Assembly: GCA_007136585.1 (NCBI GenBank)
Contig: SLGR01000244.1
Location: 1-17,940 of the forward strand
From: Candidatus Sumerlaeota bacterium
Lineage (GTDB): Bacteria; CG03; SLGR01
Direction: 5' to 3'
DNA: 17,940 nucleotides
The position numbers were made by a program, and so were the translations under genes. The notes under the pieces are model-generated. The model searched no databases and was not told where the DNA came from. It saw only the letters and a program-made list of their open reading frames with translations. Positions 2,282 through 17,771 of the stretch are shown piece after piece. Every line of letters starts with the position of its first letter. Within the stretch, counting starts at the first letter, position 1.

Positions 2282-2902
2282 CTATTTAAAACCGAAGATT
2301 TTATGCAGGTTAGGCTGCACCCTTGCCCCGGGAGCCTCTTTCTTTACCATCTCGGAAAGACGGCGGAACCCTATCCCTCCCTCCAGTGGCGAGAAAAGCA
2401 CTTCGCCTGAATCGGGTCGGAGGTCCCGAAGCACCTTCAGGCTCCAGAGAAAATCATCCCTGTCGGATATCACAAACTTCAGTTCATCACTCGCCTTAAG
2501 CCTGCCTGCGTTTGAGAAATCCATTGAGGAGCTTTCCCCGGAGGACGGTGTTTTAAAATCCATAACCGTAATAACACCGTCCGGGACCCCGGTTATATCA
2601 ATTGACCCGTTCGTCTCAATAATAACCTCCAGCCCTTCCTCAATCAGAAGAGACGCAAGTTCCGGGGTTTCCTCCTGCAGGAGAGGCTCTCCCCCGGTAA
2701 TAACCGCCATAGGGCAGGAATATTCAAGAGCCACACCGGATGTCTCGGCCACGCTCTTTTTGATTCCCCCTTCCCGGGCGTACTTCGTATCGCACCACCT
2801 GCAGGAAAGGTTGCACCCCGCCAGCCTTATGAAAACCGCCGGACGCCCGGCGTACGAGCTTTCCCCCTGAACGGAGTAAAATATTTCTGCTATATCAAGC
2901 AT
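2282..2902 (-). CDS. queE: 7-carboxy-7-deazaguanine synthase (QueE, radical SAM)
   Basis: Radical-SAM enzyme that contracts 6-carboxytetrahydropterin to 7-carboxy-7-deazaguanine, the committed ring-forming step of 7-deazaguanine synthesis. The cluster motif is Cys30-X3-Cys34-X2-Cys37 in GCNLSCRWCDTKYA. The SAM-binding GGEP motif is at 70-73. The N-terminal IFYSVQGE-SYAGRP block (7-21) is typical of QueE. At 206 residues it is of normal length. The ATG shares one base with the queD stop (TAATG), so translation is probably coupled. Another small radical-SAM activase is possible from the motif alone, but the queD/queC/queF neighbours settle the assignment. Confidence 0.95.
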   Translation of the reverse strand: MLDIAEIFYSVQGESSYAGRPAVFIRLAGCNLSCRWCDTKYAREGGIKKSVAETSGVALEYSCPMAVITGGEPLLQEETPELASLLIEEGLEVIIETNGSIDITGVPDGVITVMDFKTPSSGESSSMDFSNAGRLKASDELKFVISDRDDFLWSLKVLRDLRPDSGEVLFSPLEGGIGFRRLSEMVKKEAPGARVQPNLHKIFGFK

Positions 2903-3261
2903 TACTCTTCAGAGTAAGAGGCAGAGCAACTGTCGGTCTCAAAAACGGTGACTTCCGAGACCGGAGCACCTTTTTTCCTTACCGACTCAAAGATGTACCT
3001 GGCAATATTTTCCGAAGTAGGGTTTACATCCCGGAAATATTCCAGCCTGTTTATATCCTTGTGGTCAAGTGTTTCCAGGACTTCGCCAAGGACCTTTTTA
3101 AGGTCCCTGAAATCAACGCACATTCCGCTCGGAGGGAGCTCTTTGCTGGAAACCGAAAGAAACACGCGAAAGTTATGACCGTGGAGATTCTCGCAGTCCC
3201 CCCCGTACTCCCTTATCCTGTGCGCAGCAGAAAAATCTGACTCAACCGTAACTCTGTACAT
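2902..3261 (-). CDS. queD: 6-carboxy-5,6,7,8-tetrahydropterin synthase (QueD)
   Basis: Converts 7,8-dihydroneopterin triphosphate to 6-carboxytetrahydropterin, the first dedicated step of queuosine precursor synthesis. It is 119 residues long. The zinc ligands are His14 (SAAH), His27 and His29 (LHGHN). The catalytic cysteine is Cys23 in GDCENLHGH. LDHKDIN (65-71), PTSENIA (81-87) and the C-terminal VFET glutamate (108) complete the active-site pattern. The start is secure: reading upstream in frame, an UAA stop is reached with no other ATG, GTG or TTG. There is no Shine-Dalgarno site. A promoter lies so close that the mRNA is predicted to be leaderless. It is the first gene of queDECF. FolE, which would supply the substrate, is not in the window. 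Confidence 0.94.
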   Translation of the reverse strand: MYRVTVESDFSAAHRIREYGGDCENLHGHNFRVFLSVSSKELPPSGMCVDFRDLKKVLGEVLETLDHKDINRLEYFRDVNPTSENIARYIFESVRKKGAPVSEVTVFETDSCSASYSEE

Positions 3262-3315: not shown

Positions 3316-4941
3316 TTAAGAGGTATTACCCGGCTGATTTTTAAGAAACGCGGTAACAACTTCAGGATCAAACTGGGTCCCGCTCCTGCTCTTTATTATC
3401 TCAACGGCCCTGGCGTGATCCAGCGCTTCACGGTAAGGGCGTTTCCCGGTAAGAGCGGCGTAAGCATCGGCCACCGCAAGTATCCTGGCTTCCAGGGGGA
3501 TAGCTTCCCCTTTAAGGCTGTCGGGATATCCCGTTCCGTCATAATTTTCGCGGTGATGCATTACCGCAGGTATAAGTTTTTTAAACTCATTGACGGATTC
3601 AAGGATCCTGACGCTCTCACGGGGGTAGGTCTTTATCACCTTCCATTCCTCCTCGGAGAGTTCCCCCTCCTTTGAGAGTATGCTCTCGGGAATAACAAGC
3701 TTGCCTATGTTCTGAACAGCGGCCGCTATATCTATAAACTGTATATCCTCTTCACTGAACCCCATCTCTTGAGCTATAAGGCGGGCATACTCCCTGACTT
3801 TGTCGGTCTGTCCCGGAAAATACTTTTCCCTTACATCCACGGTACGGGTTATAAGCTCTATTACAGAGTTTAACCACCGGTCCTTTCTGGTAAAAATACG
3901 CGCCTTGTTTACAGCAAGAGCGGCGTGTGATGAGAGCACCGTAAGCATTTCCAGATCCCCCCTGGTAAAAGGGGGCTTTTCTCTTGAGCGCACTATCTCC
4001 ACCGCCCCCACCGTCTCTTCCGCAACCATTAACGGGGCGCATATTATGGAGCCGGAGATCATCCTTGTCATGCTGTCGGCCCGGGGGGAAAACCTCTCAT
4101 CCTTCGCCACGTTTCCTACCAGAAGCGGCCTGCCTTTCTCAATGACCCATCCTGCTATCCCTTCGCCTTTTGAGAGTTTCTTTCCCCTGAGAATACCAGC
4201 CTTGCTCCCGCTTACAGCTGTAAACTCGGCCCTGCCTTCATCATCTTTTGTAAGGATGGAACACCCCTCGGCCCCGAAAAAACTCAGAGCGTGTTTCATT
4301 ATAACCTCAAATACAACGCTCTCCCTCCGGGCGGAGCTTACAGCCTCAGTTATTACGCTGAGTTTCCTCAGTGAATCCGTCCGCTCCTTCAGGGAACCTA
4401 TGCGCCGGAAAATCTCCAGCGCCATACCTATATGCGCTCCGGCGCTTACAAGGGCCTGTTTTCTGTCATCCCCTGGAAGCCCCCCCGGGATATTGAAGAG
4501 TTCTACGGCTCCCATAACCCTGTTGCCGCTTTTAAGGGGAAATATCGTAATATTATCAATCTCTCCGAGAGCTTCCTTAAGGGCTTTTCTGTATGCGGGT
4601 TCATCAGATATATCCTCGGAGTACTCAAACTTTGAAGTGCCGGAAAGAACCCCGGATAAGATCGGGCCGGGTTCAACTCCGGAGCTTTTAAGCTTCTCCC
4701 GGCATTTATCCGCATCCGCAGCAGGTATATCGGCTTTGAAAGAGGCCGCCGAAAAACCGGCGCTCCTGATAATTATAACTCCGGCCGGGGCCCCCGAAAG
4801 TTTCATAAGCACCGAGAGGGTCTTATCCAGGTAATCGGCCGCGCTCTCCGAGTTTCCCATAAGCGCGCTTATTTTTTTGAGGGCGTTATACCTCAAACTC
4901 AGGGCCCTGACCGTATGTTTAAGAAGTTTTACCCCTTCCAC
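3316..4941 (-). CDS. GAF-GAF-HD-GYP protein with degenerate active site
   Basis: Predicted cytoplasmic sensor protein of 541 residues with two GAF domains (about 36-178 and 206-346) and a C-terminal HD-GYP domain (about 352-535). HD-GYP proteins normally hydrolyse cyclic di-GMP. Here the metal centre is largely lost. The first histidine of the usual GHS motif is Gln378. The HD pair is Gln410-Asn411 in AAVQNIGK. The histidine usually seen before Pro in the next helix is Tyr439. The second Asp of the usual D-x-x-D block is Ala495. HHRENYDGTGYP (462-473) and Asp492 are kept. It is therefore probably a catalytically dead signalling or binding protein. It starts with GTG, 13 bases inside the end of wecB, behind a GGAG site, so it is the last gene of the long operon. 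No membrane segment was seen. Confidence 0.85.
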   Translation of the reverse strand: MEGVKLLKHTVRALSLRYNALKKISALMGNSESAADYLDKTLSVLMKLSGAPAGVIIIRSAGFSAASFKADIPAADADKCREKLKSSGVEPGPILSGVLSGTSKFEYSEDISDEPAYRKALKEALGEIDNITIFPLKSGNRVMGAVELFNIPGGLPGDDRKQALVSAGAHIGMALEIFRRIGSLKERTDSLRKLSVITEAVSSARRESVVFEVIMKHALSFFGAEGCSILTKDDEGRAEFTAVSGSKAGILRGKKLSKGEGIAGWVIEKGRPLLVGNVAKDERFSPRADSMTRMISGSIICAPLMVAEETVGAVEIVRSREKPPFTRGDLEMLTVLSSHAALAVNKARIFTRKDRWLNSVIELITRTVDVREKYFPGQTDKVREYARLIAQEMGFSEEDIQFIDIAAAVQNIGKLVIPESILSKEGELSEEEWKVIKTYPRESVRILESVNEFKKLIPAVMHHRENYDGTGYPDSLKGEAIPLEARILAVADAYAALTGKRPYREALDHARAVEIIKSRSGTQFDPEVVTAFLKNQPGNTS

Positions 4942-6065
4942 TGAACCGGCTCCTTTTTTCTCATCCCTAACTTGTACTCAAGTATATCCGCAATCCTGCA
5001 GGAAGAATTCCCGTCTCCGTAAGGGTTATGTTTCCTGGCAAAACGCCTGTAGAGCCCCTCATCTGTAAGAAGGCGCTCCGACCACTCCAGTATAGCCCCG
5101 GGTTCGTCCCCGATAATCTTTACCGTCCCGGCCTCAACCCCTTCGGGTCTCTCCGTGACCTTTCTGAGAAGAAGTACAGGTTTTCCGAAAAACGGGGCCT
5201 CCTCCTGTATTCCCCCGGAATCCGTTATGCAGAAAAGGCAATGCCTTAACAACCATACCATGCCGGGGTAAGCGACAGGTTCTGTCAGTATAATATTATC
5301 CGTCTTTGAGAGCAAACCGCTGACCGGGGTTTTCACCTCCGGGTTCGGGTGCACAGGGTAAATAAAAACTATATCCGGAAACCTTTCAGCCGCTTCTTTC
5401 AAACCCGAGCATATCCTGAGGAGGGGTTTTCCGAAGTTTTCCCTGCGGTGGGCGGTCACAAGAACGAACTTCTTTCCTATAAGTTTCCGGAGCTCTGGGG
5501 TAGGAGCGGATATGGGGGAAGAAGATATAATTCTTAAAGCGTCGATACCCGTGTTTCCCGTAACGTAAATACTCTCACGTTTTACGTTTTCTATTATCAG
5601 GTTCTCGCGGTTCAGAGGCGTAGGCGCAAAGTGAATCGCGGAGAGGAGATCAGCCATTATCCTGTTATACTCCTCGGGAAAAGGGTTTTCGGGATCACCC
5701 GACCTGAGCCCCGCTTCTATGTGTCCCGTCTCTATACGGCAGTAAACGGCGGTAAGAGCCGCCGCTGCTGCGGTAGTGGTATCGCCCTGAACCAGGAGCA
5801 TATCCGGCTTTTCCTTTTCCAGGACTTCCCCAAGGCGTTCTATACACCTTGAGGCTATCCCGGGAAGTCTCTGGGAGTCTCTCATTATCCCGAGGTCGTA
5901 ATCGGGAGTTATCCCGAAAATTCCCAACGCCGAATCAAGCATCTGCCTGTGCTGAGCGGCGGAGATGCTGAGAACCTCAAACTTTTCCCGCCTGCCCAAC
6001 TCCTTAATAAGGGGGGCCGTTTTTATAACCTCCGGACGGGTCCCGAAAACTACAGCTATCTTCAT
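4929..6065 (-). CDS. wecB: UDP-N-acetylglucosamine 2-epimerase, non-hydrolysing
   Basis: Interconverts UDP-GlcNAc and UDP-ManNAc, supplying ManNAc for surface polysaccharide. It has 378 residues, the normal length. Arg10 and Lys15 in GTRPEVIK, Asp95 in VQGDTTT, Glu117 in GHIEAGLRSGDPENPFPEE and Glu131 fall at the same positions as in the characterised E. coli enzyme. His206 in AHRRENFG is the equivalent catalytic histidine. DSGGIQEEAP near residue 280 is the nucleotide-binding signature. It starts 13 bases after the transferase gene and overlaps the HD-GYP gene. No hydrolysing-type features were seen. A specific polysaccharide product cannot be named from this window. Confidence 0.94.
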   Translation of the reverse strand: MKIAVVFGTRPEVIKTAPLIKELGRREKFEVLSISAAQHRQMLDSALGIFGITPDYDLGIMRDSQRLPGIASRCIERLGEVLEKEKPDMLLVQGDTTTAAAAALTAVYCRIETGHIEAGLRSGDPENPFPEEYNRIMADLLSAIHFAPTPLNRENLIIENVKRESIYVTGNTGIDALRIISSSPISAPTPELRKLIGKKFVLVTAHRRENFGKPLLRICSGLKEAAERFPDIVFIYPVHPNPEVKTPVSGLLSKTDNIILTEPVAYPGMVWLLRHCLFCITDSGGIQEEAPFFGKPVLLLRKVTERPEGVEAGTVKIIGDEPGAILEWSERLLTDEGLYRRFARKHNPYGDGNSSCRIADILEYKLGMRKKEPVQWKG

Positions 6066-14010: not shown

Positions 14011-14087
14011 TGGGGTGGGTGACCGGATTTGAACCGGCGGCCTCCTGGGCCACAACCAGGTGCTCTAACCCCTGAGCTACACCCACC
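14011..14087 (-). tRNA. tRNA-His (anticodon GTG)
   Basis: The minus strand folds as a full tRNA. The acceptor GTGGGTG (14080-14086) pairs perfectly with CACCCAC (14015-14021), followed by TA and the GCTC D-stem. The anticodon arm is CCTGG-TTGTGGC-CCAGG with anticodon GTG. The T arm is GCCGG-TTCAAAT-CCGGT. The identity is confirmed by an encoded extra G at -1 (14087) opposite discriminator C73 (14014), the special mark of tRNA-His. The CCA tail is encoded (14011-14013). The anticodon begins with G34, the position modified to queuosine, so this tRNA is a likely target of the queDECF pathway in the same window. Confidence 0.97.
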
Positions 14088-14286: not shown

Positions 14287-14736
14287 ATGAAAATTGCATC
14301 ATTACTTTTAATAACGCTTTTTTGCTTAATGCCGGCCCTGCCCGGGGAGGCCTCAGAACCCGGTGAGCAAATTGCAGTAAACAGGTACTTCCAGAAAGGT
14401 ATTGAGTATTCCAACAAGGGTGAGCACGAAAAAGCAGCGGAGGAGTTCAGAAAAGCCATCACAATAGATGAGAGATTCCCGGACGCCTACCTCGCCCTGA
14501 CCGTGGCTCTAATAAATATGAGAGAGCCGGAGGAGGCCCTTGTTTACGCAGTAAGGGCATCCGAACTGGATCCCGAAAGCAGGAAAGCGCTTTTTATAAA
14601 AGCGCGGCTTTACGAAAGAAACGGAGAGACAGATAAGGCTATAAGCGCCTGGGAAAGATATCTTAAACTCAACCCCGAGGGACGGCGCGCCCGCAAGGCG
14701 AAGAGGCACCTGGAGACACTCAGGGAAGCGCAATGA
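14287..14736 (+). CDS. Exported TPR-repeat protein
   Basis: A secreted or periplasmic adaptor-type protein of 149 residues. Residues 1-22 form a signal peptide (Lys, then a long Leu/Ile core) with a likely cleavage after GEA. The rest is three tandem tetratricopeptide repeats, about 32-65, 66-99 and 100-133, showing the typical A-x-x-x-F/Y and LDP/LNP end patterns, followed by a basic tail RRARKAKRH. TPR arrays bind partner proteins; no enzyme motif is present. The start has a good GGAG site. The stop overlaps the next gene's ATG (ATGA), so the two products are probably made together and may act together. The function is unknown. Confidence 0.85.
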   Translation: MKIASLLLITLFCLMPALPGEASEPGEQIAVNRYFQKGIEYSNKGEHEKAAEEFRKAITIDERFPDAYLALTVALINMREPEEALVYAVRASELDPESRKALFIKARLYERNGETDKAISAWERYLKLNPEGRRARKAKRHLETLREAQ

Positions 14737-15350
14737 GACCGGTTTCAAAAACACTTAAAAAGACACCGCTGGGAGCAATCTTCTCTCTTATCGTTTTAGC
14801 AGTCTTATTTTACGGCTGCGGACCCAAGGTGGCTTTTATAGAAGGTTACGATTTCGGGCGTATAGAACGCGTGGGGGTAATAAAGTTTGACAGCTCCCAG
14901 GTGAATTACTTTTCATCGTTCGACCCGGGAAGCGCTGTGGCTGACGAGTTTGTATTCCAGTTCATTAACAGGGGAGTCAGAGTCGTGGAGAGATCGCGCC
15001 TGGAAAACATACTCCGTGAGCAGAACCTCTGGGATAGCGGGCGCCTTGACCCCGAAACCGTTAAAGAGGCGGGAAAACTTCTCGGGGTGGATGCCCTCGT
15101 GATGGGAACCGTCACCCGCTACGTTCCGGATAAGAAGGAACGGATATATGTAAGAGACAGCGCCGGCAGGGTCCGAGAGGAGATATTCCTTGTTGAGGCC
15201 GAGGTGGGGGTAAGCGCCCGGATGGTGGATGTGGAGACAGGAGAGATAATCTGGGCCGGGTCGCACGTGCACGAATCCTTCTATATTGATACCGCCATAC
15301 GACAGGCGGTAAGCGCGCTGCTCAATTCCCTCCGGGGCGTCTGGCTCTAA
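14733..15350 (+). CDS. CsgG-like lipoprotein
   Basis: A 205-residue predicted lipoprotein. The signal peptide ends in a lipobox (LFYGC, with lipidated Cys29). The mature part looks like a CsgG/LpoB-type fold: RVGVIKFDSS near 42-51, the RGVRVVERSRLENILREQ block (80-97), LLGVDALVMGTVTRY (114-128) and a late VDVETGEIIWAG (166-177). True CsgG forms the outer-membrane curli pore. Shorter relatives of this size occur with many unknown envelope roles, so a pore cannot be claimed. No csgA, csgE or csgF is nearby. It is translated with the TPR gene, and a pilin-like gene follows 25 bases later. Residue +2 after the cysteine is Gly. Confidence 0.75.
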   Translation: MRPVSKTLKKTPLGAIFSLIVLAVLFYGCGPKVAFIEGYDFGRIERVGVIKFDSSQVNYFSSFDPGSAVADEFVFQFINRGVRVVERSRLENILREQNLWDSGRLDPETVKEAGKLLGVDALVMGTVTRYVPDKKERIYVRDSAGRVREEIFLVEAEVGVSARMVDVETGEIIWAGSHVHESFYIDTAIRQAVSALLNSLRGVWL

Positions 15351-15375
15351 TACAACCAACCGAAAGGAAATTCCA

Positions 15376-15792
15376 ATGATGAGAAAAAAATCAAAGAAGG
15401 GGTTTACGCTGGTTGAACTGGTTGTAACGATGGTTATACTCGGTATACTGGCGGGGATCACGGTTCCTCTGTACAGAAACTATATCCGGAGGGGTCGGGC
15501 CCAGGAAGGGTTTATGCTCCTTGGCTCTGTCAGTTCGGCTCTGGACGCCTACTGGACCGAACACGGCACTTTCACCGGGGCCTCCGGAAACGGAAATACA
15601 GATCTGGGAAACCTAAATATTGATGCCAGGGGAAATACTTACTTTACAAGCTATACCCTGGAAACGCTCACCGAGACCCGTTACACCGTAAGTACCGAAG
15701 CCGAACCCGGAACCGACGCTGAAGGGATCTCACTTACTATGACCGGGGGAACCGACACCCGCGCTGAAATCAGCGTGGATTTTGATGATTAG
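15376..15792 (+). CDS. Type IV pilin-like protein (prepilin)
   Basis: A prepilin of 138 residues. The short basic leader MMRKKSKKG is cut by prepilin peptidase after Gly9. Phe10 would be the N-methylated first residue and Glu14 the conserved Glu5. The hydrophobic alpha-1 helix TLVELVVTMVILGILAGITV follows. The globular part is small, rich in Thr and Gly, and has no cysteine pair. It could be a major pilin or a type II secretion pseudopilin; no pil or gsp gene is in the window to decide. It has an AAAGGAAA ribosome binding site and follows the lipoprotein gene by 25 bases, probably in the same transcript. It converges on the helicase gene 17 bases away. Confidence 0.9.
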   Translation: MMRKKSKKGFTLVELVVTMVILGILAGITVPLYRNYIRRGRAQEGFMLLGSVSSALDAYWTEHGTFTGASGNGNTDLGNLNIDARGNTYFTSYTLETLTETRYTVSTEAEPGTDAEGISLTMTGGTDTRAEISVDFDD

Positions 15793-17006: not shown

Positions 17007-17771
17007 CTAATGAGCTCCCATTAACGCGGTGCCGGCCATTCCCAATATAAACCCCAAGACTGCTCCCAGGGCCGGGACCCGGTGTCTTCCCATCTTTGCC
17101 ACGGGAGCTATGTCCTGAAAAACAAGGTAGAGTATCCCGCCGGAGGCAAATGTCGCAATAAAAGCGGTTATACCCGGACTCCCGCTTAAAAAAACTGTTC
17201 CTGCTAAAGCGGCGGCGGGGCCCAGAAACCCTGCCGCAAAAAGCCTTCCGAGAGCCCCGGATGAACGGACCCCTGCGGCGGTCATCTCCCTGTGAGAGTT
17301 AAACCCCTCCGGAAGGTTCTGTATAAATATAAAAACAGAGAGAAATATTCCCAAAACCCGGTCACGGGCGAAAACCGCCCCCAGAGCAAGGGCCTCCGGT
17401 ATAAAATCAAGCAAAAAAGCAAGGAACTCCGCCCTGGATTTCCCTCCCCGGGAAAACGCCGCATCCAGGGCGCAGAAAACCGCGCCCCCTGAAGCAGCCG
17501 CCAGGGTTATATGTAACGGCGGAAGATGTTCTATCCCTTTGGGCGCGAGTGCAAAGGCCACTGCTGCAATAAGCCCTCCTCCTCCTAACGCCGTTATTCC
17601 GTGAAGCGCCTCTTTTTTCAGTTCCGTCCCGGGGAGTTTTTCGGATGCCGAGAGAACCCCTCCTAAAAAGGCCGCAGATCCGGCCGCCCAGGCAAAGAAT
17701 GCCGCCTGTATGATAATCCCCGTTTCCATGACTAATAGGTACAGTATAAACAGGCCAATGTCAAGGTTCAC
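17007..17771 (-). CDS. ZIP-family metal transporter
   Basis: A polytopic membrane protein, probably importing zinc or another divalent metal. About eight hydrophobic segments are visible in 240-254 residues. The two metal-site helices are recognisable: LLDFIPEALALG and IQNLPEGFNS. In the characterised bacterial ZIP from Bordetella the first helix starts with His. Here it is Asp in DFIPEA, while the Gln-Asn-x-Pro-Glu-Gly of the second fits the Gln-Asp-x-Pro-Glu-Gly there. A third-helix acidic residue (YLVFQDIAP) is kept. Two starts are possible: GTG at 17771, and ATG at 17729 starting METGIII. Neither has a ribosome binding site. The ATG lies about where transcription would begin. The metal is unknown. 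Confidence 0.8.
   Translation of the reverse strand: MNLDIGLFILYLLVMETGIIIQAAFFAWAAGSAAFLGGVLSASEKLPGTELKKEALHGITALGGGGLIAAVAFALAPKGIEHLPPLHITLAAASGGAVFCALDAAFSRGGKSRAEFLAFLLDFIPEALALGAVFARDRVLGIFLSVFIFIQNLPEGFNSHREMTAAGVRSSGALGRLFAAGFLGPAAALAGTVFLSGSPGITAFIATFASGGILYLVFQDIAPVAKMGRHRVPALGAVLGFILGMAGTALMGAH
17736..17764 (-). promoter_or_regulatory. Possible promoter of the ZIP gene
   Basis: A perfect -35 TTGACA (17759-17764) is followed after 17 bases by TACCTA (17736-17741), a poor -10. If used, transcription would begin at or next to the ATG at 17729, a leaderless start. It would also exclude the GTG at 17771. The poor -10 keeps confidence low. Confidence 0.35.

Follow-up and report, generated by a model that had tools for sequence, protein, structure and literature searches.

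The GAF-linked HD-GYP gene of the window, which is the whole 17,940-nucleotide stretch of contig SLGR01000244.1 analysed here, apparently encodes an old and selected pseudo-phosphodiesterase and is not a damaged gene, because syntenic orthologues share its losses at the metal site, these proteins form one clade, dN/dS is low and paralogues elsewhere are intact. From these comparisons it is well supported that the loss of catalysis is old and under selection, and the suggestion of selection for a non-catalytic role, made in a preliminary description of this DNA, is upheld. By analogy with DvhD of Desulfovibrio vulgaris the conserved and catalytically dead domain would probably (at about 0.6) serve as a signal receptor that binds cyclic di-GMP without metal. 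If so, HD-GYP enzymes have become receptors more than once, as have EAL and GGDEF domains. Routine annotation would label the window protein a phosphodiesterase, and probably wrongly.

The reading frame, Pfam and an AlphaFold model together bear out the GAF-GAF-HD-GYP architecture first proposed for the 541-residue product (Table 1). Pfam reports HD_5 over residues 366-528 (E=6.3e-41) and, for the second GAF, GAF_2 over residues 207-344 (E=2e-25), and does not separately report the first GAF, of which a GAF-like fold is visible in the model (input a 25-sequence alignment, mean pLDDT 86.6). The first GAF is there joined by a long helix to the second, and the second by another long helix to the HD-GYP bundle. 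Sequence and fold agree in placing the protein in the HD-GYP family, since besides the HD_5 match PmGH of Persephonella marina is matched in sequence at E=1e-45, and among the best solved matches to the model are PmGH (PDB 4MCW; Z 28.6, 347 residues aligned), DvhD with cyclic di-GMP (structures PDB 9RBZ/9RC0; Z 25.2, rmsd 3.1 over 196 residues) and PA4781 (Z 24.7). Its GAF domains resemble numerous unrelated GAF structures about equally well, so that these fold matches point to no particular GAF ligand, and the protein is predicted to be soluble. Opposite the gene runs an antisense open reading frame (window 3800-4834, + strand, 344 aa, TTG start), which has probably arisen by chance opposite the coding sequence.

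Table 1. Coordinates, in window positions, of the HD-GYP gene, its parts and its operon neighbours.
Feature	Position	Strand	Basis or remark
Putative GAF-GAF-HD-GYP pseudo-phosphodiesterase, 541 aa, GTG start	3316..4941	-	ORF call, Pfam, AlphaFold model
First GAF, residues about 34-149	4495..4842	-	AlphaFold model; weak in Pfam
Second GAF, residues about 207-319 (Pfam 207-344)	3985..4323	-	Pfam, AlphaFold model and fold match
HD-GYP domain, residues about 358-535	3337..3870	-	5/7 core metal ligands lost
Gln410-Asn411 codons at the HD position	3709..3714	-	
wecB, UDP-GlcNAc 2-epimerase, upstream operon neighbour	4929..6065	-	
queD (PTPS family), conserved downstream neighbour	2902..3261	-	
13-nt overlap of wecB 3' end and HD-GYP gene start	4929..4941	-	same in L009, L010, L011

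In PmGH the metals are held by E185, H189, H221, D222, H250, H276, H277 and D305, and both HD-GYP subfamilies share all of these but E185 (PMC4159591). At the seven common positions the window protein reads, in the same order, Q378, Q410, N411, Y439, H463, R464 and D492, and so has lost five of the seven core ligands (Q378, Q410, N411, Y439, R464) and with them the catalytic set of HD pair plus remaining ligands; kept are H463 and D492, together with K414, the GYP tyrosine Y472, R501, Y503 and R504. Alignment with PmGH and the orthologues places Gln410-Asn411 at the HD pair, and Q378, Y439, D492 and A495 where they had been assigned. That HHRENYDGTGYP is intact, as was also claimed, proved wrong by one position. 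PmGH H276-H277-E278 aligns with H463-R464-E465, the orthologue segments YHCENYDG and YHHEKYDG agree, and, with the alignment anchored by the conserved E465 and the DG, H463-R464 corresponds to the HH dyad and the H277 equivalent is lost. The HHExxDGxGYP loop is here H463-R464-E465-NY-DGTGYP, and since its second histidine is an arginine the protein is filed as a degenerate, non-canonical HD-GYP. Ala495, counted earlier among the metal-ligand losses, does replace an aspartate, although that residue, the equivalent of PmGH D308, is a conserved structural one and no ligand; D308 hydrogen-bonds the ligand H189 and Arg192, and D308A harms PmGH activity as severely as ligand changes do (PMC4159591).

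Single alanine changes in PmGH (H189A, H221A, D222A, H250A and H277A) each essentially abolish activity (PMC4159591), and because of this the window protein, read through its aligned residues, is very unlikely to be a working phosphodiesterase. A reduced or altered metal site giving weak or different phosphohydrolase activity could be argued from the retention of H463, D492 and K414 and from the orthologues, as L011 keeps five of the seven core ligands (H189, H250, H276, H277, D305) and L009 and L010 keep an Asp at the D222 position. It is nonetheless very improbable, given the PmGH alanine changes, the loss of both HD residues in the window copy and in L011, and ligand columns that vary at the background rate, unlike those of a selected alternative site. 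Q378 and R464 occur only in the window copy, which has lost the most ligands among the orthologues, and the dyad reads HC in L009 and L010 and HH in L011. The orthologues therefore span graded states, from L011 with little lost besides the HD pair to the largely dismantled window protein, and such a graded family would allow the steps of an enzyme-to-receptor conversion to be tested directly.

The three full-length orthologues (41-44% identity) represent two further families of the order, occupy the same operon position, and belong to genomes deposited as Elusimicrobia bacterium CSSed10_371m, CSSed10_282R1 and GH52. A fifth copy, split in the genome G002 of the same family as the window (L167:1501-1710 and L155:3151-3381), is represented on contigs by 70 residues from its start and 76 from its end, the middle with the HD pair not being found there; a match at a G002 contig end turned out to be a different HD-GYP with its HD pair intact. 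Across the window copy and L009, L010 and L011 the HD position reads QN, KD, KD and QN, so that the Gln-Asn sought in related genomes is found in one orthologue and not in the other two. The HD histidine is absent from all four proteins with a readable HD pair, the window copy counted, and none of them has the intact pair by which the window copy would look merely damaged. The ADxxD aspartate (the D308 equivalent) is lost in five of five, Ala or Thr standing in its place and Ala in the G002 fragment. In the tree the window protein and the three orthologues form one clade (support 100/99), and the complete HD-GYP paralogues sampled at other loci of 16 phylum genomes keep H189, the HD pair, H250, HH and D305 without exception (28 of 28). 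As the orthologues share losses while these paralogues keep the ligands, the simplest account is that activity was lost in the common ancestor of the family and that the protein has been kept ever since. Judged from the residues seen today, that ancestor had probably given up both the HD histidine and the aspartate of ADxxD before the three families split.

The window genome is 88% complete in 257 contigs and its copy has more lost ligands than any orthologue, both of which could point to a decaying gene or, the genome being metagenome-assembled, to a mistake of sequencing or assembly. For the family this is ruled out by the shared losses and by the dN/dS of the closest orthologue pair (84% identical), which comes to 0.069 for the whole gene and 0.032 for the HD-GYP domain, a sign of strong purifying selection, and for the window copy it is scarcely credible in view of open full-length frames, a conserved start overlap, synteny and common losses in three other genomes. 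Neither of the marks of a pseudogene, a broken frame or relaxed selection, is seen, the frames being open in four genomes and dN/dS low. A scan of genome contigs together with searches of the phylum and its relatives returned no family members besides the three orthologues and the split G002 copy, the contig scan relying on two short peptide patterns that distant members could escape. The next matches are HD-GYPs about 33% identical and lacking the N-terminal part. Other altered ligand sets occur in nine Omnitrophota HD-GYPs (such as Pro in place of the first-helix or the HD histidine, and Ser, Asn or Gly at D305), which are apparently separate degenerate families, and three Atribacterota proteins form a divergent HD-GYP clade on a long branch, in which D305 is replaced by Glu and R314 by Lys or Thr.

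What has stayed fixed across the orthologues is the fold, the GYP loop, L428, W433, Y472, R501, Y503 and R504. Across the four sequences two of the seven ligand columns do not vary, equal to the domain background of 46/159, against six of nine for the canonical cyclic-di-GMP contact columns of DvhD and PmGH (p=0.026), a nominal significance from four sequences of one clade that is treated as weak; an earlier contact set, picked post hoc, gave p=0.004 and was replaced by all published canonical contacts. Equivalents of the DvhD contacts L577, Y621, R650, Y652 and R653 are kept and M646 is Leu or Met, and three contacts are not kept, with Ser or Lys for E668, Trp for K582 as in PmGH, and Y523 matched only in the window, the orthologues having Arg or Lys. 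The E185 position holds Tyr in the window and Arg, Arg and Lys in the three orthologues, and each protein has at least one basic residue at a ligand or E185-equivalent site (R464; K410 with R374; K374). The pattern fits a pocket that would no longer need metal yet still need its ligand. The same contact residues are conserved in ordinary HD-GYPs also, and so could persist for folding. Cyclic di-GMP is likely to be present in the host for a receptor to bind, since profile matches above the curated cut-off give its genome nine GGDEF domains and one PilZ domain, and at least two of its HD-GYP proteins have complete ligands.

With the DvhD precedent and most nucleotide contacts kept, a cyclic-di-GMP-binding output is plausible. 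Once the ancestor had lost its HD histidine and the aspartate of ADxxD, the remaining metal ligands would have drifted at roughly the domain-wide rate, with the fold, the GYP loop and most contacts held fixed, and the metal-free pocket would still bind cyclic di-GMP or a related dinucleotide. Tyr472 and Arg501 would grip the phosphates, and a basic residue in the former metal site (Arg464, or elsewhere Lys410 or Lys/Arg at 374) perhaps also holds a phosphate. Binding would then alter the packing of the HD-GYP dimer and of the long GAF-HD helix, as in DvhD, the two GAF domains may tune the response to another ligand, and the output would probably be a protein partner, for which WecB or another product of the operon is a possible though not a favoured candidate. 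It is put forward only tentatively that the family comprises lineage-specific tandem-GAF receptors in which these basic residues replace the metal in holding the cyclic dinucleotide, made together with a sugar-nucleotide epimerase in most hosts, and so would represent a second independent HD-GYP conversion.

A different output, possible if on balance not expected, would be a pure protein-protein interaction module without nucleotide, through a GYP-loop contact with a GGDEF protein or as a scaffold, with the GAFs as sole ligand sensors. The GYP loop and its surrounding face (DGTGYP, IP, RI) are among the most conserved parts of the protein, the DvhD contacts E668 and Y523 are not conserved in the family, the GYP motif of RpfG is required for its GGDEF complex and dispensable for activity (PMC4159591), and PA2572 of Pseudomonas aeruginosa, a YN-GYP protein, acts in vivo without detectable phosphodiesterase activity (PMC3411652). 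However, a scaffold would not obviously need all of the nucleotide-contact residues Y472, R501, Y503, R504 and L428, which are invariant.

The order wecB, HD-GYP gene, queD is found in four genomes (G000, G004, G005 and G006), in an operon that further holds glyA, upp and queuosine-precursor genes. In each the gene starts inside the wecB tail with the same 13-nt overlap and an AAGGAG- or AGGAGG-like site within wecB (in the window a Shine-Dalgarno-like AAGGAG inside its 3' end, just upstream of the start), and the overlap is kept whether the start codon is GTG, ATG, ATG or CTG. The CTG of L011 (L011:1501-1503) is an apparent start, placed by the conserved N-terminus and the wecB overlap. The coupling to wecB noted in the preliminary description thus holds in four genomes, and fails in G002, where 36 nt separate the gene's start from upp, with neither wecA nor wecB in the interval, and queD follows the C-terminus on another contig; no wecB was found in that assembly, which is 84% complete. 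Elsewhere wecA-wecB occur without the HD-GYP gene, wecB being followed directly by queD in G001, while in G003 the two flank a sensor histidine kinase and a response regulator whose C-terminal domain looks repeat-like (L154:2916-5616). Because its occupants differ among genomes, the slot seems to be a site for signalling genes in an operon of mixed housekeeping content.

A specific role in surface polysaccharide control, as once suggested from the wecB coupling, is weakly supported because the link holds in four genomes and fails in the fifth. The stronger form, a dedicated regulator of WecB or surface polysaccharide translationally coupled for stoichiometric assembly, would be compatible with the receptor reading and could explain the conserved overlap, but it is improbable given the differing neighbourhoods of G001, G002 and G003 and the housekeeping nature of the remaining operon genes.

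Two further loci of the window were recorded. A 254-aa membrane protein (17007-17771, - strand) has no Pfam match and meets the ZupT model NF003243 at E=8.5e-5, far below its cut-off. ZIP transporters usually carry HNxPEG, and this protein has DFIPEALALG and QNLPEG, so that by its motifs its metal site may also be altered. A short group at 14287-15792 (+ strand), near tRNA-His at 14011-14086, comprises a TPR protein, a CsgG-like lipoprotein and a type IV pilin-like protein (ComP_DUS, E=8e-6).

DvhD is among the closest known systems. In it SQ stands in place of HD and MN in place of HH; the structure of its HD-GYP domain contains cyclic di-GMP and no metal, the protein has no phosphodiesterase activity and its dimer changes on cyclic di-GMP binding (PMC13090378). 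Like DvhD the window protein has lost ligands of both the HD pair and the HH dyad and retains the fold, the GYP tyrosine, the Arg-x-Tyr-Arg segment and the loop leucine, L011 still having its HH. The two differ in that DvhD is membrane-bound, carries dCache and PAS domains, has a periplasmic protease as its output and retains the His of the first helix, which the window copy has lost, whereas the window protein has two GAF input domains and lies in another operon. PmGH, the best structural match, likewise joins a GAF to an HD-GYP by a long connecting helix, but is an active phosphodiesterase with its eight ligands complete and three irons bound, against five of the seven shared ligands missing in the window protein. 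PA2572 resembles it by description in its replaced HD pair, undetectable cyclic di-GMP degradation and function in vivo, and differs in having a REC input instead of GAF. Bd1817 of Bdellovibrio bacteriovorus (PDB 3TM8), an unorthodox HD-GYP fold matched by the model at Z 18 and termed inactive (PMC4159591), has a PDB title that flags the unusual Y of its GYP, in contrast to the window protein with its GYP tyrosine intact and its metal ligands lost. The window protein is not the first dead HD-GYP, since DvhD and PA2572 precede it. DvhD falls outside the window family in the tree, though on a long branch, and because it groups elsewhere the losses look independent in the two, so that the window family, with its different architecture, seems to be a separate instance.
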